The notes beneath the pieces are model-generated. The model was not told where the DNA came from and searched no databases. It saw nothing but the letters and a program-made list of their open reading frames with translations. A DNA stretch of 64,000 bases from assembly GCF_003030345.1 (NCBI RefSeq), contig NZ_CP028158.1, positions 930,001 through 994,000 on the forward strand, read 5' to 3'. The translations under genes and the position numbers were made by a program. How positions within the stretch are numbered: position 1 is the stretch's first letter; the number at the start of each line of letters is the position of its first letter. This stretch comes from Plantactinospora sp. BC1 (GTDB lineage: Bacteria > Actinomycetota > Actinomycetes > Mycobacteriales > Micromonosporaceae). Positions 23,121 through 37,305 of this stretch are shown piece by piece.

Positions 23121-23168
23121 CCGAGGGCCGGCGCGCACCTTCGGGCGCCCGCTTCGCCGCAGACGCGC

Positions 23169-23204
23169 TTCGGGGAGGCCGGCTGCGGGCCGGGCCTCCC
23201 CGAA
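23169..23204. terminator. Bidirectional terminator between corA and the lysozyme-like gene
   Basis: TTCGGGGAGGCC (23169-23180) pairs perfectly with GGCCTCCCCGAA (23193-23204) with a 12-nt loop, between convergent stops at 23120 and 23222. Confidence 0.75.
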
Positions 23205-23221
23205 ACGTTCCGTCGACCGGG

Positions 23222-23992
23222 TTACCGGGAGCGGGACCAGAGGTCCTGCACGATGTCGGCGGCCTGGTCCTCCCACTGGGCGTACGCGAACGGGTACGCC
23301 GACACCTGCACCGCCTGGGCGGCGTCGGTCAGCGGCCGGTCCCACCAGCGGTCGACCCGCTTGAGACCCTCGAAGAACGCGGCGGCCGAGTAGTCACGAT
23401 CCCGGATCTGGTCCGGCGAGCCCCAGCCCGACGACGGCCGCTGCTGGAACAGCCCCAGCGAGTCGTGGTCGTTCCACGCGCCCAGGTGGTCGAGGTTGCG
23501 CAGCTTCGACTCCTGGAGGGCGGTGGCGACGCCGATCACGGCGCCACGCTGACCCATGTCCATCTTGCGGGCCACCCGGACGATCTCCCGGGCGTTGTCC
23601 CGCTGCTCGTCGTCGAGGTCGATCCGCGACTGGTAGCCCTGCACCCCGTTCGGGATCAACTTGTCCCGGGATGCCCTGGCGTCCGAGTTCCCCCGGTCGG
23701 CGGGGCGGTAGCCGTCGCGGTGCGAGTCGTCGTCCCGCATCGACTGGCTGTACGCCGCCGACTGCGCGCCCGGGTCACCGGCTGCGGCGACCACGCCGAC
23801 CGGGCCGGCCACCGCCGAGCAGGCGGCCGCGCAGGTGAGGCCCGCGACCGCCAGTGCGGACCGGCGGGCGATCGGAGTTTCCGCGACGGCTGGCAGCCGC
23901 CGGGTCACCGGATGTGCCGCGATGGCGGGGAGCCAGCGCGTACGAGCGGTCTCCGCGATGGCGGGGAGCCATCGTCCGAAGATCGGATTCAT
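23222..23992 (-). CDS. Secreted lysozyme/transglycosylase-like protein, paralogue A
   Basis: A protein of 256 residues. The N-terminus holds a motif repeated three times (RWLPAIAET, RWLPAIAAH, RRLPAVAET), then a hydrophobic stretch ARRSALAVAGLTCAAACSAVAGPVGVVAAAG that looks like a signal peptide with an unusually long basic leader. After a charged linker comes the conserved domain: AVIGVATALQESKL, DHDSLGLFQQRPSSGWGSPDQI, GLKRVDRWWDRPLTDAAQAVQVSAYPFAYAQWED. ALQES...GLFQ resembles the catalytic Glu and following motif of soluble lytic transglycosylases, so cell-wall cleavage is inferred. It is the most diverged of four paralogues here (also at 25384, 30701 and 34126). It has its own structured leader (24045-24115). 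Confidence 0.75.
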   Translation of the reverse strand: MNPIFGRWLPAIAETARTRWLPAIAAHPVTRRLPAVAETPIARRSALAVAGLTCAAACSAVAGPVGVVAAAGDPGAQSAAYSQSMRDDDSHRDGYRPADRGNSDARASRDKLIPNGVQGYQSRIDLDDEQRDNAREIVRVARKMDMGQRGAVIGVATALQESKLRNLDHLGAWNDHDSLGLFQQRPSSGWGSPDQIRDRDYSAAAFFEGLKRVDRWWDRPLTDAAQAVQVSAYPFAYAQWEDQAADIVQDLWSRSR

Positions 23993-24044
23993 GGTTACCC
24001 CTTTCGATCTGGGATTCCGGGAGATTCCGGGAGGGACTGCTGCC

Positions 24045-24115
24045 GTCCTGGGCCGCTCGGCCCGCGGACAAGGAGGTACGCCCGCGATCCAGGGGGCTGA
24101 CCTCGCGGGCGTACC
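24045..24115 (-). promoter_or_regulatory. Structured 5' leader of paralogue A
   Basis: In mRNA order, hairpin H1 is GGTACGCCCGCGA (plus strand 24075-24087) paired over 13 bp with 24103-24115. It is followed by a short pyrimidine-rich linker and hairpin H2: GTCC (24045-24048)/GGAC (24066-24069), enclosing GGGCCG/CGGCCC. The same order of H1, pyrimidine linker and H2 occurs before paralogues B-D although the sequence differs. Confidence 0.55.
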
Positions 24116-24294
24116 GACATGAACAACGAGTCGGGCCAGTCCGGCATTCCGGATTCGCCCGCCCGGTGCCCGCCGCCGGTCCGCCCCGGGTTCCGTCCGG
24201 CTCCGGCCCGCGGAGGGCCGGCGGCAGGCCGGACAGACCAGCAAAATCGGGTACGGACGATCCGGACCCGCCTCCTTCCGGCTACCCTGAGCGC

Positions 24295-24651
24295 ATGCAG
24301 TACGCCGCTGCGGCCGGAACCGGCGTCGCCTATCTGGCCCGCCCGGGCCGGCCTGCCGTAGTGAGCCCGACCGTGGCCGAGCTGACCGGCCCGACCCGGG
24401 GCACCGTCGTGCTGCCACTGCGGCTGATGTGGGGGCCGGAGCGCAGCTTCGACCTGGACGATCCCGACCAGCTGCTCTGGATGTACGAGAACGTCCTGCG
24501 CGAGACCACCCGCTCCGACGACCTGCGCCGCTATCTCAACGGCCGGGTGCTCCGCCGGGTCTGGTCCGCGCTGAACCTGCCCCGCGGGGTACGGGCGGCC
24601 TGGGAGCGACGGCACCCGTCGCTGGCCGCCGGTGATCGCCGGGCGGCATGA
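24295..24651 (+). CDS. Unrecognised small protein, possible antitoxin partner of the AbiEii-like gene
   Basis: A protein of 118 residues. It starts MQYAAAAGTGVAYLARPGRPAVVSPTVAELTGPTRG and continues with acidic and basic helices (DLDDPDQLLWMYENVLRETTRSDDLRRYLNGRVLRRVWSAL). No family is recognised. The last bases ATGA overlap the start of the AbiEii-like nucleotidyltransferase, so the two are translated together. A TACCCT element 7 nt before the ATG suggests a leaderless transcript. Its position as the first small gene of the pair fits an antitoxin, but no DNA-binding motif is evident. Confidence 0.6.
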   Translation: MQYAAAAGTGVAYLARPGRPAVVSPTVAELTGPTRGTVVLPLRLMWGPERSFDLDDPDQLLWMYENVLRETTRSDDLRRYLNGRVLRRVWSALNLPRGVRAAWERRHPSLAAGDRRAA

Positions 24652-25307
24652 CCACCACCCATCTCGACGACTTCTACCGCCAGGTCGCCCGGGTCGCCCT
24701 CTCCGTGGCCGACAAGCACGGGTTCGTGCTCGGCGGTGGGGTGGCCTGGGCGGCACACGGGCTGGTGTCCCGGCCCACCGAGGACGTCGACCTCTTCGCC
24801 GACGTCGACGGCGCGGCGGCCAGCGCCGAGGCGGAGGTCCGGACCGCGCTGGAGGCGGCCGGCTTCACCGTCGCCGACGAGGACCCGTCGAGCGACCTGG
24901 CCGGCCTGTTCAGCGGGTTCGAGCTGGACATGAAGGACTTCCTGGTCAGCCGGGGCGGCCGGCGGCTACGGCTCAGCCTCGGCCGGCTGGATCGGCACCG
25001 CAGCCCGGTGGTGATGGACCTCGGGCCGGTCATGCACGTCCAGGACCTGGTGGCCAGCAAGACCGCCGCCCTGGTCACCCGCCGCGAGGTTCGGGACTAC
25101 ATCGACGTCGCGGCAGCGCTCGACCGGTACGCCGTCGCCGACCTGATCCGGCTCGCCGCCGAGTACGACCCGGCGATCGAGCCGGAGGACATCGCCGCCG
25201 CCGGCCGCTACCTGGACCGACTGCCCGACCAGCGCTTCGCCCGGTACGGCCGGGACGCCGCACAGGTACGGTCGATCCGCGCGAAGCTCGCCGGCTGGCC
25301 ACGCTGA
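24648..25307 (+). CDS. AbiEii-like nucleotidyltransferase (possible toxin)
   Basis: A protein of 219 residues. The nucleotidyltransferase signature is GGGVAWAAHGLVSRPTEDVDLFAD (GG, spacer, E-D-x-D), followed by FELDMKDFLVSR and PVMHVQDLVASKTAALVTRREVRDYIDVAAAL, which matches the AbiEii/DUF1814 family. Members serve as toxins in type IV-like systems and, as MenA enzymes, modify tRNA. It shares a 4-nt overlap with the upstream small gene. A function in defence or growth control is inferred from the family. Confidence 0.8.
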   Translation: MTTTHLDDFYRQVARVALSVADKHGFVLGGGVAWAAHGLVSRPTEDVDLFADVDGAAASAEAEVRTALEAAGFTVADEDPSSDLAGLFSGFELDMKDFLVSRGGRRLRLSLGRLDRHRSPVVMDLGPVMHVQDLVASKTAALVTRREVRDYIDVAAALDRYAVADLIRLAAEYDPAIEPEDIAAAGRYLDRLPDQRFARYGRDAAQVRSIRAKLAGWPR

Positions 25308-25342
25308 CCCGGGCCTCTCCCCCGACCCGGCACGGGACATGC

Positions 25343-25375
25343 CGAAGGCCGGACCCGAGTCGGATCCGGCCTTCG
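25343..25375. terminator. Terminator between the AbiEii-like gene and paralogue B
   Basis: CGAAGGCCGGA (25343-25353) pairs with TCCGGCCTTCG (25365-25375). The hairpin is followed by TTCCT on the plus strand. It lies between convergent genes ending at 25307 and 25384. Confidence 0.7.
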
Positions 25376-25383
25376 TTCCTGCC

Positions 25384-26109
25384 TTAGCTGTTGTTCCAGG
25401 TGTTGGCGACCAGGTCGGCGGCCAGGTCCTCCCACTGCGCGTACGCGTCGGGGTAGGCCGAGACCTGTACCTTCTGCGCGGCCACGGTCAGCGGCAGGTC
25501 CTGCCAACCGTCAACCTGCTTCAGCCCCTTGAGGAACGCGATGGTCGAGTACTCCGGATCGGTGATCTGCTCCGGCGAACCCCAACCCGACGACGGTCGC
25601 TGCTGGAACAGGCCCAGCGAGTCGTGGTCGTTGCGGTCACCCAGGTGACCCAGGTTCTCCAACTTCGACTCCTGCAACGAGGTACCCACGGCGATCACCG
25701 CGGCACGCTCGTCCAGACCCGCCTTCTTCGTCGCCTTCACGATCGCCTTCACGTTGTCGGACTGCTCACCCGACAGCGCAATCCGCGACTGCTCACCCTG
25801 CGCACCGTGCGGGACCAGCTTGTCCCGCGACGGCTTACGATCCTTGCCCTCGCGCTTGTCACGCTTGTCGCTCTTACGGTCCTTCTCGTTCTTGTGGTCC
25901 TTGTCGCTCTTGTGGTCGTTGCCCTTGTCGGCCATGACCGACTGCGACACCGGCGAAGCGACATGCTCGGGCGCGGCGTGAGCGGCCACGGCGGGGCCGG
26001 CGACAGCGCCACCGACGAACGCCAGACCAGCAACACCCAGAGCGGTCCTACGAACCAGAGAGGTCTGCTCGATGGCCGGGAGCCATCGGCTGAACAGAGT
26101 CGTGTTCAT
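25384..26109 (-). CDS. Secreted lysozyme/transglycosylase-like protein, paralogue B
   Basis: A protein of 241 residues starting MNTTLFSRWLPAIEQTSLVRRTALGVAG, with one RWLPAI motif, a hydrophobic export segment ending around AVAAHAAPEH, and a very charged Lys/Asp linker (HKSDKDHKNEKDRKSDKRDKR). The conserved domain (LQESKL, DSLGLFQQRPSSGWGSPEQI, VQVSAYPDAYAQWEDLAADLV) then runs to the C-terminus. It is nearly identical to paralogues C and D outside the linker. The likely role is cell-wall cleavage outside the membrane, inferred from the Glu-Ser and GLFQ motifs. The ribosome site GGAAGG lies 3' of a helix in the leader that can cover part of it. Confidence 0.75.
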   Translation of the reverse strand: MNTTLFSRWLPAIEQTSLVRRTALGVAGLAFVGGAVAGPAVAAHAAPEHVASPVSQSVMADKGNDHKSDKDHKNEKDRKSDKRDKREGKDRKPSRDKLVPHGAQGEQSRIALSGEQSDNVKAIVKATKKAGLDERAAVIAVGTSLQESKLENLGHLGDRNDHDSLGLFQQRPSSGWGSPEQITDPEYSTIAFLKGLKQVDGWQDLPLTVAAQKVQVSAYPDAYAQWEDLAADLVANTWNNS

Positions 26110-26363
26110 GATGGTCTACCTTCCAATCGGGGGAACAACACCCCACAGGGGGAAAACCGGGGTGTCATTGGAAATCACACGTCCCGAGACTGTCGAAGCC
26201 TCCAGGGACGAAAGAAGGTTCGCCTGGCACACGCGCACGGGGGGTGCTGGTACTCAGGCGAACACCATATGTAACGACCGGCGGCCCCGGATCATTCCCC
26301 GAGGCCCGACCACCCGCCCAGCTCACAGGCGGTGCTACTCGGCCGTACGCATGGTGTAACGAC
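26110..26363 (-). promoter_or_regulatory. Structured, conserved 5' leader of paralogue B
   Basis: In mRNA order: a GTCGTTACA box (plus strand 26354-26363 reversed), a hairpin-rich segment, a second GTCGTTACAT box (26269-26278), then H1 (arms 26218-26226 and 26255-26263, GTTCGCCTG/CAGGCGAAC), and H2 (26181-26185 with 26205-26209, inner 26186-26191 with 26197-26202). Last is H3 (26122-26127 with 26167-26172, inner 26138-26144 with 26159-26165). The final arm of H3, ATTGGA, runs into the ribosome site GGAAGG. Changes in the other copies keep the pairing. I could not assign it to a riboswitch class that I know. Confidence 0.65.
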
Positions 26364-26460
26364 CGAGCCCCCGCCAACATTCCACCGCCGACAGTTGATC
26401 ACCAATCGGAACCGGACATCGGTGACGGACGCACCTCCGATGTCCCACTAGCATGGCGAG

Positions 26461-26802
26461 ATGGCGCTCGACCTGTTTGCCGGTATACCGGTCAACGACT
26501 ACCCGGCGGCACTGGCCTGGTACGAAAAGCTGCTTGGATCCCCGCCGACGTTCATCGCCAGCGACAGCGAGGCGGTGTGGGAACTCGCCGAGCATCGGTC
26601 GCTCGTCATCGAACATCGACCGGAGCATGCCGGTCACGCCCTGCACACCGTCTTCGTTGACGACTTCGACGCCCTGTTGGCCAAGACGGCTGAGCGGGGA
26701 CTCCAACCGGCGCGACGGGAGACGTACTCCAACGGGGTGCGGAAGGCCACGTACGTCGACCCCGACGGAAACGAGATCGGATTCGGCGGAGCCCCGCTCT
26801 GA
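26461..26802 (+). CDS. VOC (glyoxalase/bleomycin-resistance fold) family protein
   Basis: A protein of 113 residues: LFAGIPVNDYPAALAWYEKLLG at the start, HTVFVDDFDALLAKTAERGLQ in the middle and GVRKATYVDPDGNEIGFGG at the end, a complete single-unit VOC domain. The final DPDGNEIGF motif carries the usual metal-ligand glutamate. The substrate is unknown; such small proteins act as lyases, dioxygenases or drug-binding proteins. It is a single gene, located just upstream of the leader of paralogue B and divergent from it. Confidence 0.85.
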   Translation: MALDLFAGIPVNDYPAALAWYEKLLGSPPTFIASDSEAVWELAEHRSLVIEHRPEHAGHALHTVFVDDFDALLAKTAERGLQPARRETYSNGVRKATYVDPDGNEIGFGGAPL

Positions 26803-26960
26803 CCGGGAACCACGTACGCTCAGGCGCGTACGGGTGAAATCGCATCCGTAGGGTTTGACTGTGCGCCGGAGGACGCCTCGTACATGGATCGGGCATTGGT
26901 CACCATCTAGTACGGCGACCGCCGTTCGCGATTTTCGGTCGATCTGGTGTCTGGTGGTCT

Positions 26961-27392
26961 TTACGGGTGCGCTGCTTGGAGGATGGCGGCGAGAGCGTCG
27001 ATCGTTTCCTGCGCCTCGGTTTGGTCGGTCTCGGTCGTCCATCCTTGATGCCATGGCCCGCCGGGAGCGGCCACGAAGTGCAGCGCTTCGAGCGCGGACG
27101 CGGCAAGGTCCGGCACTGGCTCGGGCAGAATCACTGCGCCCGGTTCGTCGGACACTTGCGTAAGGCGGTGCTGTAGGTGCTCGCCGCCGGGAAGGGTAGC
27201 GGCAACCAGGGCTGCCGCCGCGACTACTTCGTCGGGGAAATACTCCCGCCAGAGCAGGTCGCGGTTGGCAAGGACGTAGCCGAACATGTGTCGTAGTGCT
27301 TCGGCGCGCTGTTGTGGCGGTCGCTCCGCGAGTTCGTCAAGGAAGTCCAGTGCGCCGTCACTGCTGAACGGTCCGGTTCCAAACGTGCCCAC
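26961..27392 (-). CDS. DUF4259 domain protein
   Basis: A protein of 143 residues beginning with the DUF4259 start pattern GTFGTGPFSSDGALDFLDELAE. Acidic helices with several Glu and Gln residues follow. The GTG at 27392 is chosen because homology starts there and GAGGCGAGGGTG precedes it; an upstream start at 27419 is possible. No biochemical role is established for this family. Members are often found in accessory regions. Confidence 0.7.
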   Translation of the reverse strand: MGTFGTGPFSSDGALDFLDELAERPPQQRAEALRHMFGYVLANRDLLWREYFPDEVVAAAALVAATLPGGEHLQHRLTQVSDEPGAVILPEPVPDLAASALEALHFVAAPGGPWHQGWTTETDQTEAQETIDALAAILQAAHP

Positions 27393-27488
27393 ATCACCCT
27401 CGCCTCGATAGACGGCCACCGCCGATCATCAACGGTTGTGGACCTAACTGGAGATCGCGCGGCGGCCGCGCGCCACAGCGTAAACCCT

Positions 27489-28273
27489 GAGCCGTGGCAG
27501 CGGATTCCGGCCGGGATACTCGACTCGCTCGCAGGCCGGTTCGGGCGGGTGGAGACTCGTCGCACGCCGGCGGTATTCGTGACGGGTCCGCTGTCCGATC
27601 TTGAGGTGAAGACGTGCTGGCAGTTGGCGGAGCAGCCTGGACAGGCCCGACCGGACGCCGTGCAGCGGCTGCTATTCCGGGCGGTGTGGATTACCCGCTG
27701 TCCGTGACGACCTGCGGCAGTTGATCGCCGACCGGTTCGGTGACCCGGCCGCGGTCCTGATCCTGAAGGTGTTCCTCGACTACGCCAGCAAGCACGGCCA
27801 CACTTTGATCGACCGGCGGGTCTGCCTGCCGGTGTTGTGGACCGACGACCGCGATCGGTGTCGGGTGCGCCGGATCAAGAGTCCACCCTGCTAATGACCT
27901 GGCCTGACTCGATGACGTGTGCACCGAGGTAGACCCCGACGACAGCGGCCAGCCCAGCCTCCTGGTCTGCCGCAACAGCACCACCGGCGAGTTAGGACTC
28001 CTGCTACCGCTGCACCAACCTCGCACTTACAGCCCTCGCCATTCTAGCGATCTGCGCGCCGACGCCATGCCCCACGAGACCGACGCCCCCACCGACACTG
28101 CTTGATCAGGCTGATCGCCAACGAGTACTAGCCCTCTGATCATCACTTGCATCATTCGCTCGATCAGCGACCACACCCGCCGTCTCCCCTGGTCACAGTG
28201 GCGACGACGTCACCGAGCCCGAGCGCGACAATCCCACTACACACGCCGGCTCAACCTGGAACTACAACAGTGA
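27489..28273 (+). pseudogene. Remnant of an IS701-type transposase
   Basis: Pieces of one transposase occur in order but in different frames, with material missing. The N-terminal piece is PAGILDSLAGRFGRVETRR and continues to CWQLAEQPGQARPDAVQRLLFRAVW (27500-27690). A frame change is followed by VRDDLRQLIADRFGDPAAVL (about 27700-27760), then VFLDYASKHGHTLIDRRVCLPVLWTDDRDRCR (to about 27870). A C-terminal end SQWRRRHRARARQSHYTRRL stops at 28273. The catalytic core is largely gone. This matches my memory of actinobacterial IS701-family proteins. No terminal inverted repeats were identified. Confidence 0.7.
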
Positions 28274-28292
28274 TCACGAAGCGGCTGCCGTA

Positions 28293-29723
28293 CTAGGCGA
28301 CGTCGGGCCGGGTCATCAGTGGCGACCGTAGGTGCAACGCCAGATCAGGACCGGTCAGGGGCACGGTGCTCCACGTCGCGACCGCTGTCCCCGTCTCGGC
28401 GTCGACCACCAGCCGCACCCGGTGCGGGGTGGTGATGACGTAAAGGTCGGCGACGAACGTGTTGCCCTGCCAGGCGCCGGTTGCGACGACAGGGCGGCCG
28501 AGCGGTGAGCTTTCTCGCCATGCGCCGTGGCCGACCTCGACCGTGAGGAGCGACCCGAGTCGCAGGAGCCACCCACGGTCTACCGGATCGAGGATCACCG
28601 TGGTGCCGGCGGGTAGCGCCGAATTCTCGACGGAGGCGTCGAGTTCCGCCTTGATGGAACGCTCAGGGGCGGCCGAGCCCGGCACGGGTGTGAGTGAGAG
28701 CCGCCGCAACCGCTCGGCGAGGATCTCGTCCTCCCGGGCACTTACCGGGTCGTCCAGGCCGGGCAGCAGGCAATCCCACAGGACGGCCGGCATTGCCTCA
28801 CCCTGCGTTATCGCACCGGTCACGACGACCACGAGGTCGTGCGACGGGACGACCACGCATTGCTGACCGAAGGCTCCTTCGGCACGGTAACCGTGACGCG
28901 ATATCCAGAACTGGTAGCCGTACCCGCAAAGCAGGTCGGGGTTCTCCGACCAGTCCTCGATCTGCTGCGTCTCGATGTGCCGTCTGGTCGCGAGCCGCAC
29001 CCATTCGCGCGGGACGAGCTGCCGGCCGCCCCAGAGGCCCTCGCGCAGCAGCAGTTCGCCGAAGGCGGCGACGGCCTCGGTCGTGAGATGCAGTCCGTGG
29101 AAGCCGAAGGTGGCCCCGCTCGCCACCCGGTCCCATTCGGCGTGGTCGACGCCCATCGGCTTGAAGAGGCGGTCGTCGAGCAGTTCCGGGAGGCTGCGGC
29201 CCGTGACCCGCTCCACCATCCGGGCCAGGATGAAGGTAGTCGGATTGTCGTAGGCGTGCCGTGTTCCCTCGACCTCGAGGAACGGTACGCGTAGGAAGCC
29301 CTTCACCAGGTCGCCCGGTTCCAGTTGCCAGGCCTCGGCGAGGCTGTCCGTGCGGTGTCCGGTTGTCATGGACAGCAGGTGGTGAACGGTCAGGCGACGT
29401 CCCTGCTCCGAGACTTCGGCCGGGACGTGGTCGGGCAACACGTCCACCACCCGATCAGCCAGCGAGAGCAGTCCGTCGGCGATCGCAAGCCCCACGGCGA
29501 CCGAGGTGAACGACTTGGTCAGCGAGTAGAGGAGGTGCGGTCGTTCGGCGGAGTACGGCGCCCACCAGCCTTCGGCGACAACGTGACCGTGGCGTACGAC
29601 CATTATGGAGTGACACTCGACGGATTGCGCTTCGAGCCGGTCCAGTAGCGCGGCAACTGCGCGGGCCGACACCCCCATGGCAGCCGGTGTCGAGCGCGGC
29701 AGCAGGGTGCGCTGAGAAGGCAT
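28293..29723 (-). CDS. Beta-lactamase-fold serine hydrolase
   Basis: A protein of 476 residues. The catalytic SxxK is in YSLTKSFTSVAVG and the YxN motif in YDNPTTFILARMVERVTGRSL, with LTVHHLLSMTTGHRTD between, as in class C beta-lactamase-related esterases and peptidases. The C-terminal ~120 residues form an added domain of beta-sheet character (TTVILDPVDRGWLLRLGSLLTVEVGH). No signal peptide is seen. It stands next to the transposase remnant and ends 20 bp from it. Confidence 0.85.
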   Translation of the reverse strand: MPSQRTLLPRSTPAAMGVSARAVAALLDRLEAQSVECHSIMVVRHGHVVAEGWWAPYSAERPHLLYSLTKSFTSVAVGLAIADGLLSLADRVVDVLPDHVPAEVSEQGRRLTVHHLLSMTTGHRTDSLAEAWQLEPGDLVKGFLRVPFLEVEGTRHAYDNPTTFILARMVERVTGRSLPELLDDRLFKPMGVDHAEWDRVASGATFGFHGLHLTTEAVAAFGELLLREGLWGGRQLVPREWVRLATRRHIETQQIEDWSENPDLLCGYGYQFWISRHGYRAEGAFGQQCVVVPSHDLVVVVTGAITQGEAMPAVLWDCLLPGLDDPVSAREDEILAERLRRLSLTPVPGSAAPERSIKAELDASVENSALPAGTTVILDPVDRGWLLRLGSLLTVEVGHGAWRESSPLGRPVVATGAWQGNTFVADLYVITTPHRVRLVVDAETGTAVATWSTVPLTGPDLALHLRSPLMTRPDVA

Positions 29724-29916
29724 TCAAGCACCCTAACAAGATCACTCAGTCGAGCTTGTGGAATATCGCCCGGAGCCAATCCTGCCGATCTTGGGCAGTG
29801 GACAATCAGCGTCGACGTGCGATCACGCCGGTACTCCAGCACCCTGGAGCCGTAAAGAAGGGGGCCGTCCAGCGACTACGGCGATTCCGGTACCCCCACG
29901 GCCGGCATCCTGGCGC

Positions 29917-30450
29917 TCAAGCAGTGACAGGACCTGGTCGCTCGCTACGCCAGAATTGGCGTGGCGCGAACCCTTCACGTCGCAGCCAGTGCTCGGTATA
30001 AACGACACGTTCCGCCTCGACGACCACGAGTGTGTCCTGAGGCGGCTCGGACAACGGTCGTCCCCGCTCGGCGTGCTCGTTCTCCCACCGGAACGCCGTC
30101 CAGTAGTGCGCGCGGTCCGGATGCTCCGGGTCAAGCACCCTTGCAGTTCCGAACAGTTGAGCGCCACGGCTGCTGGCCAGCCCGACCAGCGGCGCGAAGA
30201 TTCCGATGGACACCCGCGGATCCGCAGCGAGGTTGCGCATCTTCGGTGAACGCGGTGCAGCGGTGAAGAGCACGGCGAAGCCAAGCGAGTAGTACCGCAC
30301 CGGGGTGGCCAGCGGCCCGTCCGGACCCGTGGTCGCGAGCACGCACATGTTCTGCGACGACAGGAGGTTGAGGATGCGCTCCTCAAGCCGCTGACGATCG
30401 AGTCGCTTGGTCGGCGTGGGCCCGGACAGCCAGGGGTTCGTCAACGGCAT
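29917..30450 (-). CDS. Pyridoxamine 5'-phosphate oxidase-like protein
   Basis: A protein of 177 residues with the flavin split-barrel pattern SSQNMCVLATTGPDGPLATPVRYYSLGFAVLFTAAPRSPKMRNLAADPRVSIGIF. The C-terminal part holds LVVVEAERVVYTEHWLRREGFAPRQFWR. The cofactor and substrate are not evident. It differs clearly from the PNPOx-like protein at 6330 and is not a recent duplicate. The ATG at 30450 begins MPLTNPWLSG. Confidence 0.75.
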   Translation of the reverse strand: MPLTNPWLSGPTPTKRLDRQRLEERILNLLSSQNMCVLATTGPDGPLATPVRYYSLGFAVLFTAAPRSPKMRNLAADPRVSIGIFAPLVGLASSRGAQLFGTARVLDPEHPDRAHYWTAFRWENEHAERGRPLSEPPQDTLVVVEAERVVYTEHWLRREGFAPRQFWRSERPGPVTA

Positions 30451-30525
30451 GTAGCGACCTCGATCATGACGAGCACCCTACCCACCTGACTGTCCGTCCG
30501 GCCGCCATGATCGGCAGGACTCGGC

Positions 30526-30606
30526 CTAACCCGTCATTGCCAGTCGGTCCGCCAGTTCGCCGAGGTGACTCTCCACCCGCGCCCGGTCGTAACCGCGCAG
30601 GCTCAC
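30526..30606 (-). pseudogene. 26-codon fragment resembling a DivIVA-type helix
   Basis: From GTG 30606 the minus strand reads VSLRGYDRARVESHLGELAD and stops at 30526. RGYDRAxVxxHL is a pattern seen at the start of DivIVA-like coiled coils. It sits immediately beside the left boundary of the duplicated block (30635) and may be the end of a gene cut by that event. It is too short to be sure. Confidence 0.25.
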
Positions 30607-30634
30607 GGTGGAGTCGGAACATGTCCGGAGACGC

Positions 30635-30672
30635 CGCTGGCCGGGTCCCCTGTGGTGGGGACCCGGCCAGCG
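30635..30672 (-). terminator. Terminator of paralogue C
   Basis: A perfect 16-bp stem, CGCTGGCCGGGTCCCC (30635-30650) and its inverse (30657-30672), with a TGTGGT loop. The same hairpin follows paralogue D at 34058-34095. Confidence 0.85.
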
Positions 30673-30700
30673 GGTGGTGCGGTCGTGTTGTTTGGTTGTC

Positions 30701-31414
30701 TTAGCTGTTGTTCCAGGTGTTGGCGACCAGGTCGGCGGCCAGGTCCTCCCACTGCGCGTACGCGTCGGGGTAGGCCGAGACCTGTACCTTCTGCGCGGCC
30801 ACGGTCAGCGGCAGGTCCTGCCAACCGTCAACCTGCTTCAGCCCCTTGAGGAACGCGATGGTCGAGTACTCCGGATCGGTGATCTGCTCCGGCGAACCCC
30901 AACCCGACGACGGTCGCTGCTGGAACAGGCCCAGCGAGTCGTGGTCGTTGCGGTCACCCAGGTGACCCAGGTTCTCCAACTTCGACTCCTGCAACGAGGT
31001 ACCCACGGCGATCACCGCGGCACGCTCGTCCAGACCCGCCTTCTTGGTGGCCTTCACGATCGCCTTCACGTTGTCGGACTGCTCACCCGACAGCGCAATC
31101 CGCGACTGACCACCCTGCACACCATGCGGCACCAAACGATCCCGCGACGGCTTGCCCTTACGGTCCTTGTCACGCTTCTCGCTCTTACGGTCCTTCTCGT
31201 TCTTGTGGTCCTTGTCGCTCTTGTGGTCCTTGTCGGCCATGACCGACTGCGACACCGGCGAAGCGACATGCTCGGGCGCGGCGTGAGCGGCCACGGCGGG
31301 GCCGGCGACAGCGCCACCGACGAACGCCAGACCAGCAACACCCAGAGCGGTCTTACGAACCAGAGAAGTCTGCTCGATGGCCGGGAGCCATCGGCTGAAC
31401 AGAGTCGTGTTCAT
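30701..31414 (-). CDS. Secreted lysozyme/transglycosylase-like protein, paralogue C
   Basis: A protein of 237 residues, the shortest of the three near-identical copies because its Lys/Asp linker has fewer units (DKDHKSDKDHKNEKDRKSEK). The export segment and conserved domain (SLQESKLENLGHLGDRNDHD, GLFQQRPSSGWG) match paralogues B and D almost residue for residue. It ends at TAA 30701, 28 bp before a strong terminator, and starts at ATG 31414 after the ribosome site GGAAGG. The function is inferred as in paralogue B. Confidence 0.75.
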   Translation of the reverse strand: MNTTLFSRWLPAIEQTSLVRKTALGVAGLAFVGGAVAGPAVAAHAAPEHVASPVSQSVMADKDHKSDKDHKNEKDRKSEKRDKDRKGKPSRDRLVPHGVQGGQSRIALSGEQSDNVKAIVKATKKAGLDERAAVIAVGTSLQESKLENLGHLGDRNDHDSLGLFQQRPSSGWGSPEQITDPEYSTIAFLKGLKQVDGWQDLPLTVAAQKVQVSAYPDAYAQWEDLAADLVANTWNNS

Positions 31415-31663
31415 GATGGTCTACCTTCCAATCGGGGGTGAACACCCCATGGGGGACGGGGTGTCATCGGAGATATCCCGAGACCGTCACGGTCTCCAGG
31501 GACGAAAGAAAGTTCGCCCGGCACTACAGGCACCGGGGGGGGTGCTGGTACTCAGGCGAACACCATATGTAACGACCGGCGGCCCCGGATCATTCCCCGA
31601 GGCCCGACCACCAGCCCAGCTCACAGGCGGTGGTACTCGGCCGTACCCGAGATGTAACGACCG
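31415..31663 (-). promoter_or_regulatory. Structured, conserved 5' leader of paralogue C
   Basis: It has the same hairpin order as copy B. H3 arms are TCCAAT (31427-31432) and ATCGGA (31466-31471), giving an A-U to G-U change in the mRNA pair; the inner ACACCCC/GGGGTGT helix is kept. H2 reads GAGACCG/CGGTCTC where copies B and D have a G-U pair. H1 closes with GTTCGCCTG/CGGGCGAAC, again one U-A to U-G change. Both GTCGTTACAT boxes are present. Confidence 0.65.
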
Positions 31664-31771
31664 CGAGCCCGCCAACATTCCACCGTCAGCAGTTGATCAA
31701 AAGGCCAAACCCGGACATCCGAGCGGACACCTCAGAATGCGGGGCACATCCGGCGCCTGCGCGGCCCAGCT

Positions 31772-32374
31772 CTACGTGACGGTTAGCCAGGCACGCCAAC
31801 GAGGTGTGATGAGGGCTGTGATCTCGTCATAGCCGGCCGAACCCGGGTGCGCGCCATCACCGGTACGAACCTCGCGGGTCCACACGGCGCTCTTACGCAA
31901 CGAGGACTGCACCGCGACGTACGGTACGCCCGCTTCGCGACAGGTCCGCGCAAACGCGTCGTCGAGCGAGGCCAACCGTACATTCTGAGCGTCATCGTCG
32001 ACCGGTGGCGGACCGACGACAAGGACGCGCCAGCCCTGGCCGGCAGCCTGGTCGAGCATCCGGGTCAGGGTGGCCGCCGACCGTTCGGGCGTCACCCGGG
32101 GCCGGCCGTTCTCCTCGGTGGTGTCGTTGACCCCGAACGACATCACGACACGGAGGTCGTTGCCGTCCCGTAGCCGCAGCAAACACTCTGCACGCCAACG
32201 GGCGAGGATGTCGTCGGACGTCTGCCGGCGTACGCCGAGGTTGTAGGTCGTGAGCGGTTGCCCGTCGGCGCAGGTTCGTGCCGCGAGCCGGCCCACCCAG
32301 CCCAGGCAGCGCGGATCGCCGACGCCCAGCACGAAGGAGTCGCCGACGAAGCAGACGCGCAGGTCACGGATCAC
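31772..32374 (-). CDS. SGNH/GDSL hydrolase
   Basis: A protein of 200 residues with all four SGNH blocks: FVGDSFVLGVGD (nucleophile Ser), a glycine in LGVRRQTSDDI, SFGVNDTTEENG (Asn), and DGAHPGSAGYDEI (Asp-x-x-His). There is no signal peptide, so it is likely a cytoplasmic esterase or acyl hydrolase. The start is GTG 32374. It stands alone between the leader of paralogue C and the SnoaL-like gene. Confidence 0.85.
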   Translation of the reverse strand: MIRDLRVCFVGDSFVLGVGDPRCLGWVGRLAARTCADGQPLTTYNLGVRRQTSDDILARWRAECLLRLRDGNDLRVVMSFGVNDTTEENGRPRVTPERSAATLTRMLDQAAGQGWRVLVVGPPPVDDDAQNVRLASLDDAFARTCREAGVPYVAVQSSLRKSAVWTREVRTGDGAHPGSAGYDEITALITPRWRAWLTVT

Positions 32375-32613
32375 GCGTGCAGTGTCTCAGGCGCTGCCGG
32401 CAGAACGGCCAGCTGGCCACTCCGGTGTTCCCGAGCGCGACCAGGCACGACCAGGCTGCCTGCGCGTTACGCACCATCCGAGTCGACTTTCGCCGTTCGG
32501 AGGAAACTCCCACAGCTGTCCCACTCGCACGCAGTCCGCCCGGCGAAACAGGTTTCCCGGTGCAGTGAGGTCACGGACCTCGCGGGACTCGCCCACCGGC
32601 TATGGGCGCACCC

Positions 32614-32982
32614 TCAGCCGGACGTGGGCCGAGTGAACTCGGGCTGATCGAGTACGCGCAGCCAGGATCCGTCAGGCTGGCGGCGTACCACCTGTGCCCG
32701 GGCGCCGGCACCGTCCTTGGCTACGGTCGAAGTGAGTGCGAGATCGCCGCTGACGAGCGTCGGAAGCGGCTCCTCCGGTTCGAAGTGTGGGCGGTTCGCG
32801 AGTACCTTCGTCCAGAGCGCCTGGATCGCGGCCCGGCCGACAGTCTGGCCGCCGGGCGGGTACGCCAGCACCGCATCCTCGGCGTAGAGCGCCGCGACGC
32901 CCTCGGCGTCTCCCGCGTTGGAACGCTCGACGAACAGCCGGGTGATCTCCTCCGGTCGCATTGCCTTCTCGTAATCCGCCAT
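32614..32982 (-). CDS. SnoaL-like (NTF2-fold) protein
   Basis: A protein of 122 residues. The segments ITRLFVERSNAGDAEGVAALYAEDAVLAYPPGGQTVGRAAIQALW, then LPTLVSGDLALTSTV and RRQPDGSWLRVLDQPEF, give the full cone-shaped NTF2 fold pattern. Members are enzymes or binding proteins for small ligands; this one is not assigned. The ATG at 32982 is chosen because GAGAGG lies just upstream; a longer frame starts at 33027. It is divergent from a LysR regulator that probably controls it. Confidence 0.8.
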   Translation of the reverse strand: MADYEKAMRPEEITRLFVERSNAGDAEGVAALYAEDAVLAYPPGGQTVGRAAIQALWTKVLANRPHFEPEEPLPTLVSGDLALTSTVAKDGAGARAQVVRRQPDGSWLRVLDQPEFTRPTSG

Positions 32983-33061
32983 GTGGATCCTCTCGATTCC
33001 TGCTGTATCCCCTGACGGATCGAGCATGCACGGAGCAAAATCAGAAGTACAACAGCTAATT

Positions 33062-33081
33062 CTGATGACATCTAGAATCAG
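33062..33081. promoter_or_regulatory. LysR-type operator and promoter
   Basis: CTGAT (33062-33066) and ATCAG (33077-33081) form an inverted repeat in the divergent region. TAGAAT (33073-33078) within it is a good -10 whose transcript would start close to ATG 33087, so the LysR mRNA may be leaderless and self-regulated. Confidence 0.5.
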
Positions 33082-33086
33082 CAGTT

Positions 33087-33986
33087 ATGGAGCTGAGGCA
33101 GCTGGAGTACCTCGTGGCGGTTGCCGAGGAGGCAAGCTTCACCCGGGCCGCAGAGCGCGTTCGGATCAGCCAGTCCGGGGTGAGCGCGCAGATCCGGCAA
33201 CTCGAACGCGAACTCGGGGCGACCCTCATCGACCGCTCGGCCAGGACGGCGACCCTGACGGCTGCGGGCAGGGTCGCTCTGGAGTACGCGCGCGCCACGC
33301 TTGCCTCCGCAGCCGCACTACGGCAAACCGTCGGCGAAGTGACCGGCCTGATCCGTGGCCAACTCACCGTCGGCATGATCGTCGGGTGCACGGTGACCCC
33401 GCTCTTCGAGGCGCTCGAGGCGTTCCACCGGGCCCATCCGCAGGTCGAGCTGACCCTGTTGGAGGACAACTCCGACCGACTCGTCGAGGGCGTCCGGTCC
33501 GCCGCGATCGACCTCGCCCTGATCGGTACGGCCGAAGCCACGCCGGTCGGGCTGAACGCGCTGACGATCGTCAGCGAACGACTGGTGGCGCTGGTACCGC
33601 CGGAACATCCACTCGCGGCGCGGGAGAAAATCGGCTTGGCCGACATCGCGGAGCATCCGGTCATCTGCATGCCGGAGGGCACCGGGATCCGAACCGTGTT
33701 CGACCGGGCCTGCGTCAACCGCCGCGTCCAGCCGACCATCGCCTTGCAGGCTAGTGCTGCCACCACCATCGTCGAGCTGGCGATCCGAGGGCTCGGAGTC
33801 GCGATTCTCAGCGAGTCCATGACTGACGAGTACGAGGACCGGCTGACCGCGCTCCGGGTGCGCGACGTTGACATCCCGGCGCTACTGGCACTGGTTTGGA
33901 AACCCACGCAGAGCCCTGCCCTTGCCCGACTGGTCCGGTACAGCCGAGACGCCTTCGCCCCCGTCCAGGCAGAGAGCACGACGTAA
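33087..33986 (+). CDS. LysR family transcriptional regulator
   Basis: A protein of 299 residues, the usual family length. The N-terminal helix-turn-helix reads MELRQLEYLVAVAEEASFTRAAERVRISQSGVSAQIRQLERELG. The effector-binding domain starts near residue 90 (LTVGMIVGCTVTPLFEALEAFHRAHPQVELTL). It is divergent from the SnoaL-like gene, with a symmetrical element between them. The inducer is unknown. Confidence 0.92.
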   Translation: MELRQLEYLVAVAEEASFTRAAERVRISQSGVSAQIRQLERELGATLIDRSARTATLTAAGRVALEYARATLASAAALRQTVGEVTGLIRGQLTVGMIVGCTVTPLFEALEAFHRAHPQVELTLLEDNSDRLVEGVRSAAIDLALIGTAEATPVGLNALTIVSERLVALVPPEHPLAAREKIGLADIAEHPVICMPEGTGIRTVFDRACVNRRVQPTIALQASAATTIVELAIRGLGVAILSESMTDEYEDRLTALRVRDVDIPALLALVWKPTQSPALARLVRYSRDAFAPVQAESTT

Positions 33987-34057
33987 CCCTTCCTCGATCG
34001 CACTCTTCCTCGGGTATCGGCGCGCCTGCTCGGCAGGCGCTCGGGATTCGGAAATGC

Positions 34058-34095
34058 CGCTGGCCGGGTCCCCTGTGGTGGGGACCCGGCCAGCG
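34058..34095 (-). terminator. Terminator of paralogue D
   Basis: It is the same 16-bp perfect stem and TGTGGT loop as after paralogue C (34058-34073 with 34080-34095). Confidence 0.85.
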
Positions 34096-34125
34096 GGTGG
34101 TGCGGTCGTGTTTGTTTGGTTGTCT

Positions 34126-34884
34126 TTAGCTGTTGTTCCAGGTGTTGGCGACCAGGTCGGCGGCCAGGTCTTCCCACTGCGCGTACGCGTCGGGGTAGGC
34201 CGAGACCTGTACCTTCTGCGCGGCCACGGTCAGCGGCAGGTCCTGCCAACCGTCGACCTGCTTCAGCCCCTTGAGGAACGCGATGGTCGAGTACTCCGGA
34301 TCGGTGATCTGCTCCGGCGAACCCCAACCCGAACTGGGTCGCTGCTGGAACAGGCCCAGCGAGTCGTGGTCGTTGCGGTCACCCAGGTGACCCAGGTTCT
34401 CCAACTTCGACTCCTGAAGACTCGTACCCACGGCGATCACCGCGGCACGCTCGTCCAGACCCGCCTTCTTCGTCGCCTTCACGATCGCCTTCACGTTGTC
34501 GGACTGCTCACCCGACAGCGCAATCCGCGACTGCTTACCCTGCGCACCATGCGGGACCAGCTTGTCCCGCGACGGCTTACGATCCTTCTCGCGCTTGTCA
34601 CGCTTCTCGCTCGTACGGTCCTTCTCGTTCTTGTGGTCCTTGTCGCTCTTGTGGTCCTTGTCGCTCTTGTGGTCCTTGTCGCTCTTGTGGTCGTTGCCCT
34701 TGTCGGCCATGACCGACTGCGACACCGGCGAAGCGACATGCTCGGGGGCGGCGTGAGCGGCCACGGCGGGGCCGGCGACAGCGCCACCGACGAACGCCAG
34801 GCCAGCAACACCCAGAGCGGTCTTACGAACCAGGGAAGTCTGCTCGATGGCCGGGAGCCATCGGCTGAACAGAGTCGTGTTCAT
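34126..34884 (-). CDS. Secreted lysozyme/transglycosylase-like protein, paralogue D
   Basis: A protein of 252 residues, the longest copy. The Lys/Asp linker contains repeated HKSDKD units (three HKSDKD and one HKNEKD), encoded by an 18-bp tandem repeat around 34632-34692. The conserved C-terminal domain is the same as in B and C, with the invariant LQESKL and DSLGLFQQRPSSGWGSPEQI. It is exported by the same N-terminal segment. The basic and acidic linker may bind wall polymers; that is inference. Confidence 0.75.
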   Translation of the reverse strand: MNTTLFSRWLPAIEQTSLVRKTALGVAGLAFVGGAVAGPAVAAHAAPEHVASPVSQSVMADKGNDHKSDKDHKSDKDHKSDKDHKNEKDRTSEKRDKREKDRKPSRDKLVPHGAQGKQSRIALSGEQSDNVKAIVKATKKAGLDERAAVIAVGTSLQESKLENLGHLGDRNDHDSLGLFQQRPSSGWGSPEQITDPEYSTIAFLKGLKQVDGWQDLPLTVAAQKVQVSAYPDAYAQWEDLAADLVANTWNNS

Positions 34885-35140
34885 GATGGTCTACCTTCCA
34901 ATCGGGGGAACAACACCCCATGGGGGAAAACCGGGGTGTCATTGGAAATCACACGTCCCGAGACCGTCACGGCCTCCAGGGACGAAAGAAGGTTCGCCCG
35001 GCACACGCGCACGGGGGGGTGCTGGTACTCAGGCGAACACCATATGTAACGACCGGCGACCCCGGATCATTCCCCGAGGCCCGGCCACCAGCCCAGCTCA
35101 CAGGCGGTGGTACTCGGCCGTACCCGAGATGTAACGACCG
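34885..35140 (-). promoter_or_regulatory. Structured, conserved 5' leader of paralogue D
   Basis: H3 arms are at 34897-34902 and 34941-34946 and the inner ACACCCC/GGGGTGT helix is kept. H2 reads GAGGCCG/CGGTCTC with a G-U pair, and H1 is GTTCGCCTG/CGGGCGAAC. Both GTCGTTACAT boxes are present (the distal one near 35129-35138). The block AGTTGATCAA at 35168-35177 marks the outer end of the homology, probably close to the promoter. Confidence 0.65.
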
Positions 35141-35472
35141 ACTGCCCAACCGCATTCCACCGCACCAAGTTGATCAAGCGAAGGTGGAGAGTTCGGGTCG
35201 GACAACAAAGCCGTCGCGTCGAAACGTCACCCGGACCCGACACACGTGCCGGACAACCATCGAGCCCGCCTGGGCGCCACGTCCTGGCCGCGCGGATCGT
35301 CCCTCGGAAGCAGTGAGGGCGACGAGCGGCTGCCCGACGACGGTGAGATCGACGATCACGCCGGAGTCGAGCAGCCGCAACGGTCGCTCGGTGCGACCGC
35401 ACCGGACCGGGACGATGGGGACACCCCGGTCAAGGGCGATGGGGGCACCTGCCGGTCAAGGACCCTCTCCGG
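35141..35472. other. Gap without a convincing gene
   Basis: It lies between the leader of paralogue D and the ggt stop. A minus-strand open frame of 68 codons (35174-35380) has ordinary composition but no recognisable family and no clear ribosome site. It may be the decayed end of a gene. No strong hairpin is seen. Confidence 0.4.
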
Positions 35473-37305
35473 TCAACGCCCAGGGCGGACGACACCCGCC
35501 GCCCCGCCGCCGCGCCGTACCGGTTCCGCCGACGCCACCAGGCCGTGCCGACCGGTGAACTCGATCGCGGTGGCCGCACCGAGTTCGGCGGTACTCGTGA
35601 ACCGCGGATGGCCGAGCGCGTCGAGTGCACTGCCGTACGCGCTGACGAACGCCGGTTCTGCCTGAGGCGCGGCACTGTTGCGCTGTGAGGCCCGGGGTGC
35701 CGCCATCGCCTCCGGCAGAGACATCCCGAGGTCGATCCGGTTGACCAGTACCTGCAGCACGGTGGTGATGATGGTGGCACCACCGGGGGTGCCGAGCGCC
35801 AGGAACGGGCGGCCGTCGTCGAGCACGATCGTCGGCGACATCGAACTGCGGGGGCGCTTGCCCGGCGCCGGCAGATTCGGATCGGGAGCGGCTCCCGGGG
35901 TCTGTGCGAACGTGAAGTCGGTCAACTCGTTGTTGAGCAGGAATCCGCGTCCGGGTACCACCATCGCGTTCCCGCCGGTCTGTTCGATCGTCAGGGTGTA
36001 CTCGACGACGTTGCCCCACCGGTCGGCCACCGTCAGGTTCGTGGTGCTCTGCCCGGGGTTGGGCTCGGCACCCGCCGCGCCGGTCGCGCAGTCGCCGTAT
36101 CTTCCGTCGGGTTCGCCGGGCGGTACCGGCTTCGGCGCGGCCCGGCCAGGGTCGAGCTGGCAGGCCCGCTCGGCCGCGTACCGGTCGCTGAGCAGTTCGT
36201 CGAGGATCCGCCGGGAGGTGCCGTCGGCGACGTACCGGTTCCGGTCGGCGTAGGCCAGGGCGCTCGCCTCCAGGTAGTGGTGCAGCGCCTCCGTCACCGT
36301 CATCTTGGCCAGGTCGAACCGTTCCAGGATGTTCAGCGCCTCGCCGACGGCGACACCGCCGCTCGACGGCGTCGACATGCCGTACACCTGGTAGCCCCGG
36401 TAGTCGGACCGGGTCGGCGCGGGGAACCGCAGCTCGTAGCGGGCGAGGTCGGCCGGGGTCATCCCGCCGGGTTGGATCGGGTACTGCCAGGGCACGGTCG
36501 GGTCGGCGGCGACCGGCGGGCGGCGCACCGCCTCGACGAGGTCCGCGCCGATCGGGCCGGTGTAGAAGACGTCGATGCCGCGCCGGGCGATCTGCCGGTA
36601 GGTGTCGGCCAGGTCCCGGTTGCGCTGGATGGAACCGACCGCCGGTGGTTGGCCGCCCGGCAGGTAGAGCTTCCGGGTCGCGTCGAACTGGGCGAACGCC
36701 GCCTCGTTCTCCGCCACCTGCTGCCGGAACGTCGCGTCGACCACGAACCCCCGCCCGGCCACCTCGGCGGCCGGGGCGAGCGCCGCCGACAGCGGCCGGC
36801 TGCCCCACCTGCGCAACGCCTCGTGCCAGGTCAACAGCGTCCCGGGTACGCCGACCGACAGGCCGCTGACCCGAGCCTGCTGAAAGGGGTACGGAGTGCC
36901 GCTGGCCGGGTCGACGAAGGAGTCCGCTCGGATGGAGGCGGGTGCCGACTCCCGGCCGTCGATGGTGTGCACCCGGCGGGTACGCGCGTCGTAGTAGACG
37001 AAGAAGCCGCCACCGCCGATACCGGCCGAGAACGGCTCGGTCACGCCGAGCGTGGCGGCCGCCGCCACCGCCGCGTCGACCGCGTTGCCACCGCGACGGA
37101 GTACGTCCAGGCCGACGGCGGTAGCAGTGGGGTCGACAGTGGACACGGCACCGCCGTACCCGTGCGCGGTCGGCGTCTTGGGTGGTTCGCCGGAGTGGCC
37201 GGCGGCGGCCGGTGCGGCGCTGGCCGGCGCCGACGTGACGACCAGGGTGACGGCCACGACGCCGGCCACCGCCATCCGGGCTGTTGCCCTCTTGGTGAGC
37301 CTCAT
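35473..37305 (-). CDS. ggt: Gamma-glutamyltransferase
   Basis: A protein of 610 residues with a signal peptide (MRLTKRATARMAVAGVVAVTLVVTSAPASA). The precursor block runs VLRRGGNAVDAAVAAAATLGVTEPFSAGIGGGGFFVYYD to IDGRESAPAS. The autocleavage site is in PGQSTTNLTVADRWGN, where the second Thr would be the N-terminal nucleophile. The small subunit holds NNELTDF and GTPGGATIITTVLQVL. It cleaves or transfers gamma-glutamyl groups outside the cell. The ATG at 37305 follows GGAGGGG. An upstream M20 amidohydrolase gene is on the same strand. Confidence 0.93.
   Translation of the reverse strand: MRLTKRATARMAVAGVVAVTLVVTSAPASAAPAAAGHSGEPPKTPTAHGYGGAVSTVDPTATAVGLDVLRRGGNAVDAAVAAAATLGVTEPFSAGIGGGGFFVYYDARTRRVHTIDGRESAPASIRADSFVDPASGTPYPFQQARVSGLSVGVPGTLLTWHEALRRWGSRPLSAALAPAAEVAGRGFVVDATFRQQVAENEAAFAQFDATRKLYLPGGQPPAVGSIQRNRDLADTYRQIARRGIDVFYTGPIGADLVEAVRRPPVAADPTVPWQYPIQPGGMTPADLARYELRFPAPTRSDYRGYQVYGMSTPSSGGVAVGEALNILERFDLAKMTVTEALHHYLEASALAYADRNRYVADGTSRRILDELLSDRYAAERACQLDPGRAAPKPVPPGEPDGRYGDCATGAAGAEPNPGQSTTNLTVADRWGNVVEYTLTIEQTGGNAMVVPGRGFLLNNELTDFTFAQTPGAAPDPNLPAPGKRPRSSMSPTIVLDDGRPFLALGTPGGATIITTVLQVLVNRIDLGMSLPEAMAAPRASQRNSAAPQAEPAFVSAYGSALDALGHPRFTSTAELGAATAIEFTGRHGLVASAEPVRRGGGAAGVVRPGR

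Follow-up and report, generated by a model that had tools for sequence, protein, structure and literature searches.

How might a bacterium govern together many copies of a secreted enzyme that cuts the cell wall? The question is raised by a 64,000-nucleotide (nt) stretch of the 8.33 Mb genome of Plantactinospora sp. BC1 (contig NZ_CP028158.1, positions 930001-994000; hereafter the window), which carries on its minus strand three genes predicted to encode secreted GH184-type muramidases, B (25384..26109), C (30701..31414) and D (34126..34884), and a diverged GH184-type paralogue, A (23222..23992). The initial annotation proposed that a cis-acting RNA controls this wall-hydrolase family. A structured leader does precede genes of the family, and we infer that it is a cis-acting control element, although the leader of A is unmatched by the search models described below. 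Comparison of sequences establishes promoter-like elements, two hairpins (H2 and H3), conserved C-tracts and, across five genomes, the near-restriction of a CGTTACA promoter form to genes for GH184 muramidases and C39 peptidases. The explanation favoured here, to which we give a chance just short of even, is that this leader of the GH184 muramidase family would act in cis and be read at its C-tracts by a trans-acting factor.

The leader, about 120-200 nt in most cases, would be transcribed from one, two or three promoters in tandem, of the extracytoplasmic function (ECF) sigma, SigR-like type. From its 5' end it would consist of a hairpin (H1), a linker rich in C and U, the small hairpin H2 and the longer hairpin H3, with runs of C placed in the linker, at the H3 apex and just before the ribosome site. 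A candidate factor, which could be Rho, a KH-domain protein or a G-rich small RNA, would bind the C-tracts and set translation or transcript completion. For the window copies, folding predicts that the ribosome site is covered by the base of H3, and binding at the adjacent C-tracts could open or close this site. Presumably this would serve to keep the many copies of a wall hydrolase, which may damage the cell that makes it, under common control.

The leader and its C-tracts

With the leader start assumed to lie 5 nt after CGTT, so that 5' ends are deduced from the promoter, 77 of 81 leaders measure 120-200 nt (range 123-268). The succession of H1, pyrimidine linker, H2 and H3 described in the initial annotation is indeed seen upstream of B, C and D, both in the sequence and in folds. 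The leader of D (34885..35042; all coordinates of genes, leaders, hairpins and promoters refer to the minus strand) comprises H1 (34992..35038, from the sequence and the folds of the close copies B and C), H2 (34960..34976, GAGGCC-GTGAC-GGTCTC) and H3 (34897..34946), which has a C-tract in its loop and a base, TCCAAT/ATTGGA, that includes part of the ribosome site according to covariation and pairing probability. The leader of C (31415..31565) holds H1 at 31512..31561, H2 at 31480..31496 and H3 at 31427..31471, and the leader of B (26110..26267) holds H1 at 26218..26263, H2 at 26186..26202 and H3 at 26122..26172. In these two copies H1 was placed by folding and sequence and H3 by sequence and pairing probability, while H2 of all three rests on the covariation alignment and the sequence.

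Because B, C and D are 90-93% identical to one another over 1.0-1.1 kb, they provide little covariation evidence by themselves, and it is the relatives that supply it. The helix changes to which the initial annotation pointed, TCCAAT to TCCGAT and GAGGCCG to GAGACCG, are real, and each alters one side of its helix only (A-U/G-U swaps); comparing B with D reveals a change on both sides of H2 (GAGGCT..AGTCTC versus GAGGCC..GGTCTC). De-duplication left 63 leaders, 57 of which were combined with that of D in a structure-blind MAFFT alignment, A1 (58 leaders; loci L016, L019, L030, L035, L045 and L082 omitted). The start pattern dropped L023, L034 and L054, which later scored 64-65 bits with the model R1 introduced below, and L024 and L042 have 49 nt upstream. 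Nineteen H2/H3 pairs were drawn on A1 by hand. Standard pairs fill 85.6% of the cells, as compared to 78.8% in shuffles and 38.5-49.7% when the pairing is slid; two-sided changes occur at 15 of the 19 pairs (10.5 in shuffles), and double-change cells number 98 versus 47.0. RNAalifold run on A1 returns H2 alone, with 6 pairs, and H3 was drawn by hand and counted against the controls. A further alignment without Plantactinospora, A3, keeps 46 of the 58 rows, namely Micromonospora and one Micromonosporaceae row (L018), and omits the three window rows together with L013, L014, L064, L066, L067, L070, L073, L074 and L080. In A3, pairing reaches 89.4% of the cells, as opposed to 83.4% in shuffles and 36-49% when slid, and none of the 500 shuffles attains its covariation score. 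Furthermore, the minimum free energy (MFE) z-score averages -2.14, with 45 of 56 leaders below -1.

What stays constant in the alignment are the C-tracts. A run of at least 4 C stands directly before the ribosome site in 58/58 leaders of A1 and at the H3 apex in 57/58 (in L013 the run lies in the stem), and the linker contains such a run in 63 of 75 leaders; in addition, GAC is present in the H2 loop region of 45/58. Runs of five or more C occur 200 times in 56 leaders, against 102.8 (standard deviation 7.6) in dinucleotide shuffles, and G5 runs occur once against 7.8. Bases of the C5 runs are unpaired with a probability of 0.78, compared to 0.58 in shuffled leaders. Since the helices vary while the C-tracts stay constant, these findings suggest that the C-tracts are what is read.

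Two models were used to follow the leader into other genomes. R1 includes the rows of B, C and D, and its matches in the window (26114-26214, 31419-31508 and 34889-34988, respectively) therefore prove nothing, while R2 was built without Plantactinospora. R2 gives six matches in the window, and the best three coincide with the leaders of C, B and D (31419-31515, 26114-26181 and 34889-34955; E-values 0.073, 0.58 and 0.63), each on the correct strand and stopping 4 nt short of the start codon. That all three fall on these leaders is hard to ascribe to chance, yet it is not a strong match. In other genera R2 finds L116 at 1e-6 and L126, L119, L128, L122 and L127 at 0.0017-0.025. Three of these loci, L119, L126 and L128 of genome G026, hold in the H2 region a CCTTCCT that is complementary to the GGAAGG ribosome site. 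In M. endolithica a C39-type gene is preceded by a leader (L026, minus strand) that scores 36.2 bits with R1 and has an E-value of 4.6e-6 with R2. Over 61 genomes R1 lists 16 matches, 11 of them before GH184-type genes; of the remaining five, L118, L121, L123 and L125 are without promoter and L124 lies inside a GH184 coding region. R1 also matches, at E-values up to 0.05, 21 of the 29 best family loci, some of which apparently belong to species already in R1 and are not independent. The claim of a structured leader on a wall-hydrolase family is thus sustained by H2/H3 covariation in the relatives, by occurrences in other genera on the same gene family and on a C39-type gene, and by the lack of an Rfam match at gathering score.

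The leader of A, which the initial annotation took to keep the same layout in a different sequence, shares with the others the promoter spacing and the order of hairpin, pyrimidine stretch and hairpin, but it has no R1 or R2 match at E-values up to 10. Its hairpin (24076..24114) bears CCCCC in the loop. Eleven A-type relatives (L180-L190) were read. The hairpin of A recurs in L190, a locus from the same genus, and the other ten have another leader. These ten share a short hairpin around an ACCCC stretch, with variants of GCGCTC-ACCCCG-GAGCGC.

Promoter-like elements, gene copies and encoded proteins

The conserved 5' sequence had been assigned entirely to leader RNA, which is not borne out: part of the repeated 5' block looks like two tandem promoter-like elements instead, judging from the sequence pattern. 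These are P1 (35130..35158) and P2 (35045..35073, GGAAT-N17-CGTTACA) of D, P1 (31653..31681) and P2 (31568..31596) of C, and P1 (26355..26383) and P2 (26270..26298) of B; A has a single element, GGAAT-N17-CGTTGTT, at 24122..24150. The pattern GGAAT-N16/18-CGTT was found in all 80 upstream regions of a set containing many close paralogues, made up of 74 of 80 fetched loci, A to D and two distant copies from the same genome (L080, of 284 nt, is missing from this count only). It is present twice in 45 of them, three times in 25 and once in 10, and the copy nearest to the gene has a spacing of 17 before CGTT in 78/80. A promoter of this type is carried by 29/29 of the best family loci when GGAAC and GGTT are allowed, a looser form counted without control, and loci with MTTI-type N-termini have the promoter and no R1 match.

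In the five genomes searched, the full form is nearly specific to GH184 and C39 genes. In the genome of the window, GGAATN17CGTTACA has 11 matches (0 for the reversed-pattern control), 10 of which form pairs before five near-identical muramidase genes, and one precedes an oxidoreductase-like gene, as judged by eye. Four genomes of other genera, picked for carrying leader or gene matches, yield 26 matches (control 0), 19 before GH184 and 7 before C39-type genes, the targets being recognised by a motif 315-816 nt downstream; taken together, 36 of the 37 matches in the five genomes precede GH184 or C39-peptidase genes. The pattern misses promoter variants, since genome G016 has a single match despite 18 GH184-type matches. 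A looser pattern gives 17 matches in the genome of the window against 1 for the control, 10 of them before GH184 genes, 1 before a C39 gene and 6 elsewhere (L100 was read). The C39-type gene of this genome (Peptidase_C39_2, E-value 7.7e-23) has the promoter GGAAT-N17-GGTTACA, and in its region (genome position 8286731, L012) it follows what by eye resembles the end of a sigma-factor gene.

Two further sequences recur around the promoter-like elements. A second conserved stretch (about GTACGGCCGAGTACC; GTACGACCGCAGGACC in G026) lies between P1 and P2, that is, after P1 and not after P2, at 35100-35129, 31625-31652 and 26326-26354 of the window, and may be a regulator site or a part of the P1 transcript. 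Shortly upstream of the P1 -35 element, TGATCAACT recurs in B, C, D and the copy at genome position 5602633.

The four paralogous genes initially annotated comprise the near-identical B, C and D and the diverged A, and they belong to a larger family, with two more near-identical copies at genome positions 5602633 and 6597109 and several distant relatives. The five near-identical copies share a cassette of about 1 kb, in which two tandem promoter-like elements and a leader of about 150-160 nt precede the gene. In 7 of the 10 pairwise comparisons among these copies, identity is 90-97% over about 1.0-1.1 kb, in two pieces between D and the copy at 6597109. The similarity begins 255-292 nt before the start codon and ends near the stop codon or as much as about 100 nt farther downstream. 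About 2 kb from that copy (6597109-6597822), a cyclic di-AMP (c-di-AMP) riboswitch match above cut-off occurs at genome position 6600165-6600308 (+). Among the best 80 of 339 loci, the nearest named relatives are Plantactinospora and next Micromonospora. GH184-type matches at 1e-20 or better are present in 149 of 150 sampled genomes of the family, with up to 18 per genome (G016, in which 18 candidates were scored, distant relatives and fragments counted).

The encoded proteins of B, C and D (241, 237 and 252 amino acids) run from an apparent signal peptide through a charged linker to a domain at the C-terminus that contains LQESKL and DHDSLGLFQQRPSSGWG. All three open reading frame (ORF) translations have the motifs initially noted, LQESKL and DSLGLFQQRPSSGWG, as well as the RWLPAI-containing signal segment. 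The start of A is placed at 23992 (MNPIFGRWLPAI) from its likeness to B-D. No match near the curated cut-off was found in a Pfam and NCBIfam search of the window muramidase proteins. In a structure search run with B and A, both match the GH184 structures 8b2e_A and 8b2h_A at E-values of 5e-12 to 8e-12, and C and D were assigned through their near-identity to B. Both codes are tabulated in the available text of the GH184 paper, which reports that Glu41 is essential in the Kionochaeta enzyme KsGH184 (PMC10394673). Judging from residue numbering, 8b2e would be KsGH184, and counting along the alignment places its residue 41 at Glu147 of B, within LQESKL. B, C and D are thus predicted GH184 muramidases by homology to the catalytic domain, including the position of the catalytic Glu. 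A conserved in-frame stop in A-like relatives, flagged in 9 of 11 fetched regions, was discarded: no stop occurs inside the genes before their own end, and the flag is taken as the terminal stop. A tandem GGDGR-type repeat (22442-22792) lies inside an ORF (21912-23120) that by eye resembles a CorA-type transporter.

How the leader may be read

Several observations weigh against a leader read at its C-tracts. Each R2 match in the window is weak, and what aligns is the outer helix of H3 together with the C-tracts, without H2 or the inner part of the H3 stem. Chance-looking matches of similar E-value also occur elsewhere. With 72 candidates scored per genome, R1 finds true leaders in 6 of the 61 genomes, and its matches in another 5 look like chance; it recovers 4 of the 5 own-genome copies and, at E-values up to 0.05, has no match in 8 of the 29 best family loci. 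The leader of the own-genome C39 gene (L012) scores 14.6 bits with R1 (E-value 0.087) and is not listed by R2, and the C39-type leaders of G164, with a AAAGACTT linker, a C7-loop hairpin and ACCCCC before GGAAGG, were likened by eye only. Two of the five measures on A3 are modestly above the shuffles (two-sided pairs are matched by 56/500 and pair types by 26/500). H1 could not be aligned by column (the alignment A2 was too ragged and went unused), and its folds have no control. In addition, a role in stability would likewise conserve hairpins.

A Rho-dependent attenuator, in which C-rich, G-poor unpaired segments serve as a Rho utilization (rut) site and translation just downstream blocks Rho, is unlikely in our estimate. 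The leader fits it in composition, by the excess of C-runs, the depletion of G-runs, the unpaired C-tracts and the frequent linker run, but its open segments are short and interrupted by hairpins. To our knowledge, a rut site does not require an exact C-tract in a hairpin loop, which also counts against this explanation.

The two explanations that follow turn on the ribosome site. Over 80 leaders, its GGA has a mean unpaired probability of 0.19, compared to 0.24 when the 5' part is shuffled (Wilcoxon p 0.002), and it is fully open in the MFE fold of 2/80. Its partners are spread over the linker (0.26), the near upstream region (0.18), H2-H3 (0.17), the 5' part (0.13) and downstream sequence (0.07). 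As the GGA is rarely fully open and slightly more paired than in the controls, though without a constant partner, the odds of a passive leader are lowered and those of a sequestering one raised. The linker was also tried as a family-wide anti-Shine-Dalgarno strand and rejected: in 75 of the 80 leaders (L014, L015, L016, L021 and L026 were left out, with H2 unparsed), its pairing with the ribosome site amounts to -6.13 kcal/mol, against -6.20 with swapped partners and -7.66 with shuffled linkers.

That the hairpins merely stabilise or insulate the mRNA, without any regulator, is quite unlikely. Such a passive leader would agree with the MFE hairpin near the presumed 5' end in all 42 de-duplicated leaders folded, a count made without control, and with linker pairing weaker than that of shuffled linkers; it agrees poorly with helices that change around constant C-tracts and with a ribosome site that is not kept open. 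A Shine-Dalgarno sequestration switch, in which a helix holds the ribosome site until a signal releases it, appears decidedly improbable. It draws on the slight excess of GGA pairing over the controls, on a linker ACCUUC (ACUUUC in C) that complements GGAAGGU, and on B, C, D and the two distant copies, where the GGA pairs within H2-H3 at a probability of 0.74-0.98 through TCCAAT (TCCGAT in C)/ATTGGA. A switch at this stem would be possible in the genome of the window. Against sequestration stand the lack of a constant GGA partner across the 80 leaders, linker pairing no better than with swapped partners, and the outer H3 stem, which by eye cannot be made out once Plantactinospora is left out of the alignment. 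A metabolite riboswitch of a new class is very improbable. It would suit the presence of a conserved leader with several helices on a single functional gene family, and the c-di-AMP riboswitch on a wall-related peptidase in Corynebacterium glutamicum offers a precedent (PMC9960051, available text). Against it, the helices differ in length and spacing, what is conserved are short C-tracts, and Rfam gives no match at gathering score.

Comparison with known systems

The initial annotation had named a match to a known Rfam class, such as ydaO-yuaA, as the outcome that would make the element known instead of new. Rfam 15 gives no match at gathering score in the window, and seven related loci have no match at E-values up to 0.5. 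Two matches below the gathering score, Burkholderiales-2 and mir-3138 (E-values 2.1 and 4.4), lie outside the leaders, on GC-rich hairpins just downstream of C and D (30620-30667 and 34058-34095) that are probably terminators. A link to c-di-AMP is not supported: the riboswitch RF00379 has no match in the window at gathering score nor at E-values up to 5 in 23000-35600, and occurs at five other places in the genome.

The c-di-AMP (ydaO-yuaA) leaders resemble those of the window in being structured and in belonging to secreted wall-lytic enzymes of actinobacteria, as the available text on C. glutamicum describes (PMC9960051), and the window leaders differ from them in having no RF00379 match. 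An Rpf-linked RNA switch of Mycobacterium tuberculosis is likewise a leader for which control of an enzyme that lyses the cell wall has been proposed; by its description in the accessible text, rather than by sequence, it is set apart as another family on another enzyme (PMC6009663). As to the enzymes, the window proteins share with the published GH184 muramidases the catalytic domain with the catalytic Glu position, and differ from the subjects of that study in being bacterial, in their charged linker and in their many copies; according to its available text the wall-binding domain is missing from bacterial members, which the study does not cover (PMC10394673). The promoters have the same -35 element and spacing (GGAAT-N17-C-GTT) as the SigR promoters of Streptomyces, given as GGAAT-N18-19-GTT (PMC9205884); the difference is that the CGTTACA form is often tandem and, in the five genomes, nearly confined to GH184/C39 genes. 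No report of this leader was found among the matches listed in a literature search.

The leader, unmatched in Rfam and found in related Micromonosporaceae, suggests a new control element for wall-cutting enzymes. Wall hydrolases can damage the cell that makes them, and the near-specific promoter form and the leader give a handle on the control of this arsenal, namely on the sigma factor, the C-tract-binding factor and the inducing condition in these actinobacteria. It is possible, though doubtful, that the leader represents a new class of cis-regulatory RNA, so far in Micromonosporaceae only, which would be a scaffold showing several C-tracts to a C-tract-binding regulator and, with the promoter form, would coordinate GH184 muramidases and C39 peptidases by a CsrA-like multi-site logic. 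If true, an RNA that displays C-tracts raises the question of C-tract-reading regulators in bacteria. The target leaders of CsrA/RsmE repeat a short motif, GGA, which occupies both a hairpin loop and a position next to the ribosome site. The leader described here resembles them in this layout and differs in its motif, which is a C-tract.

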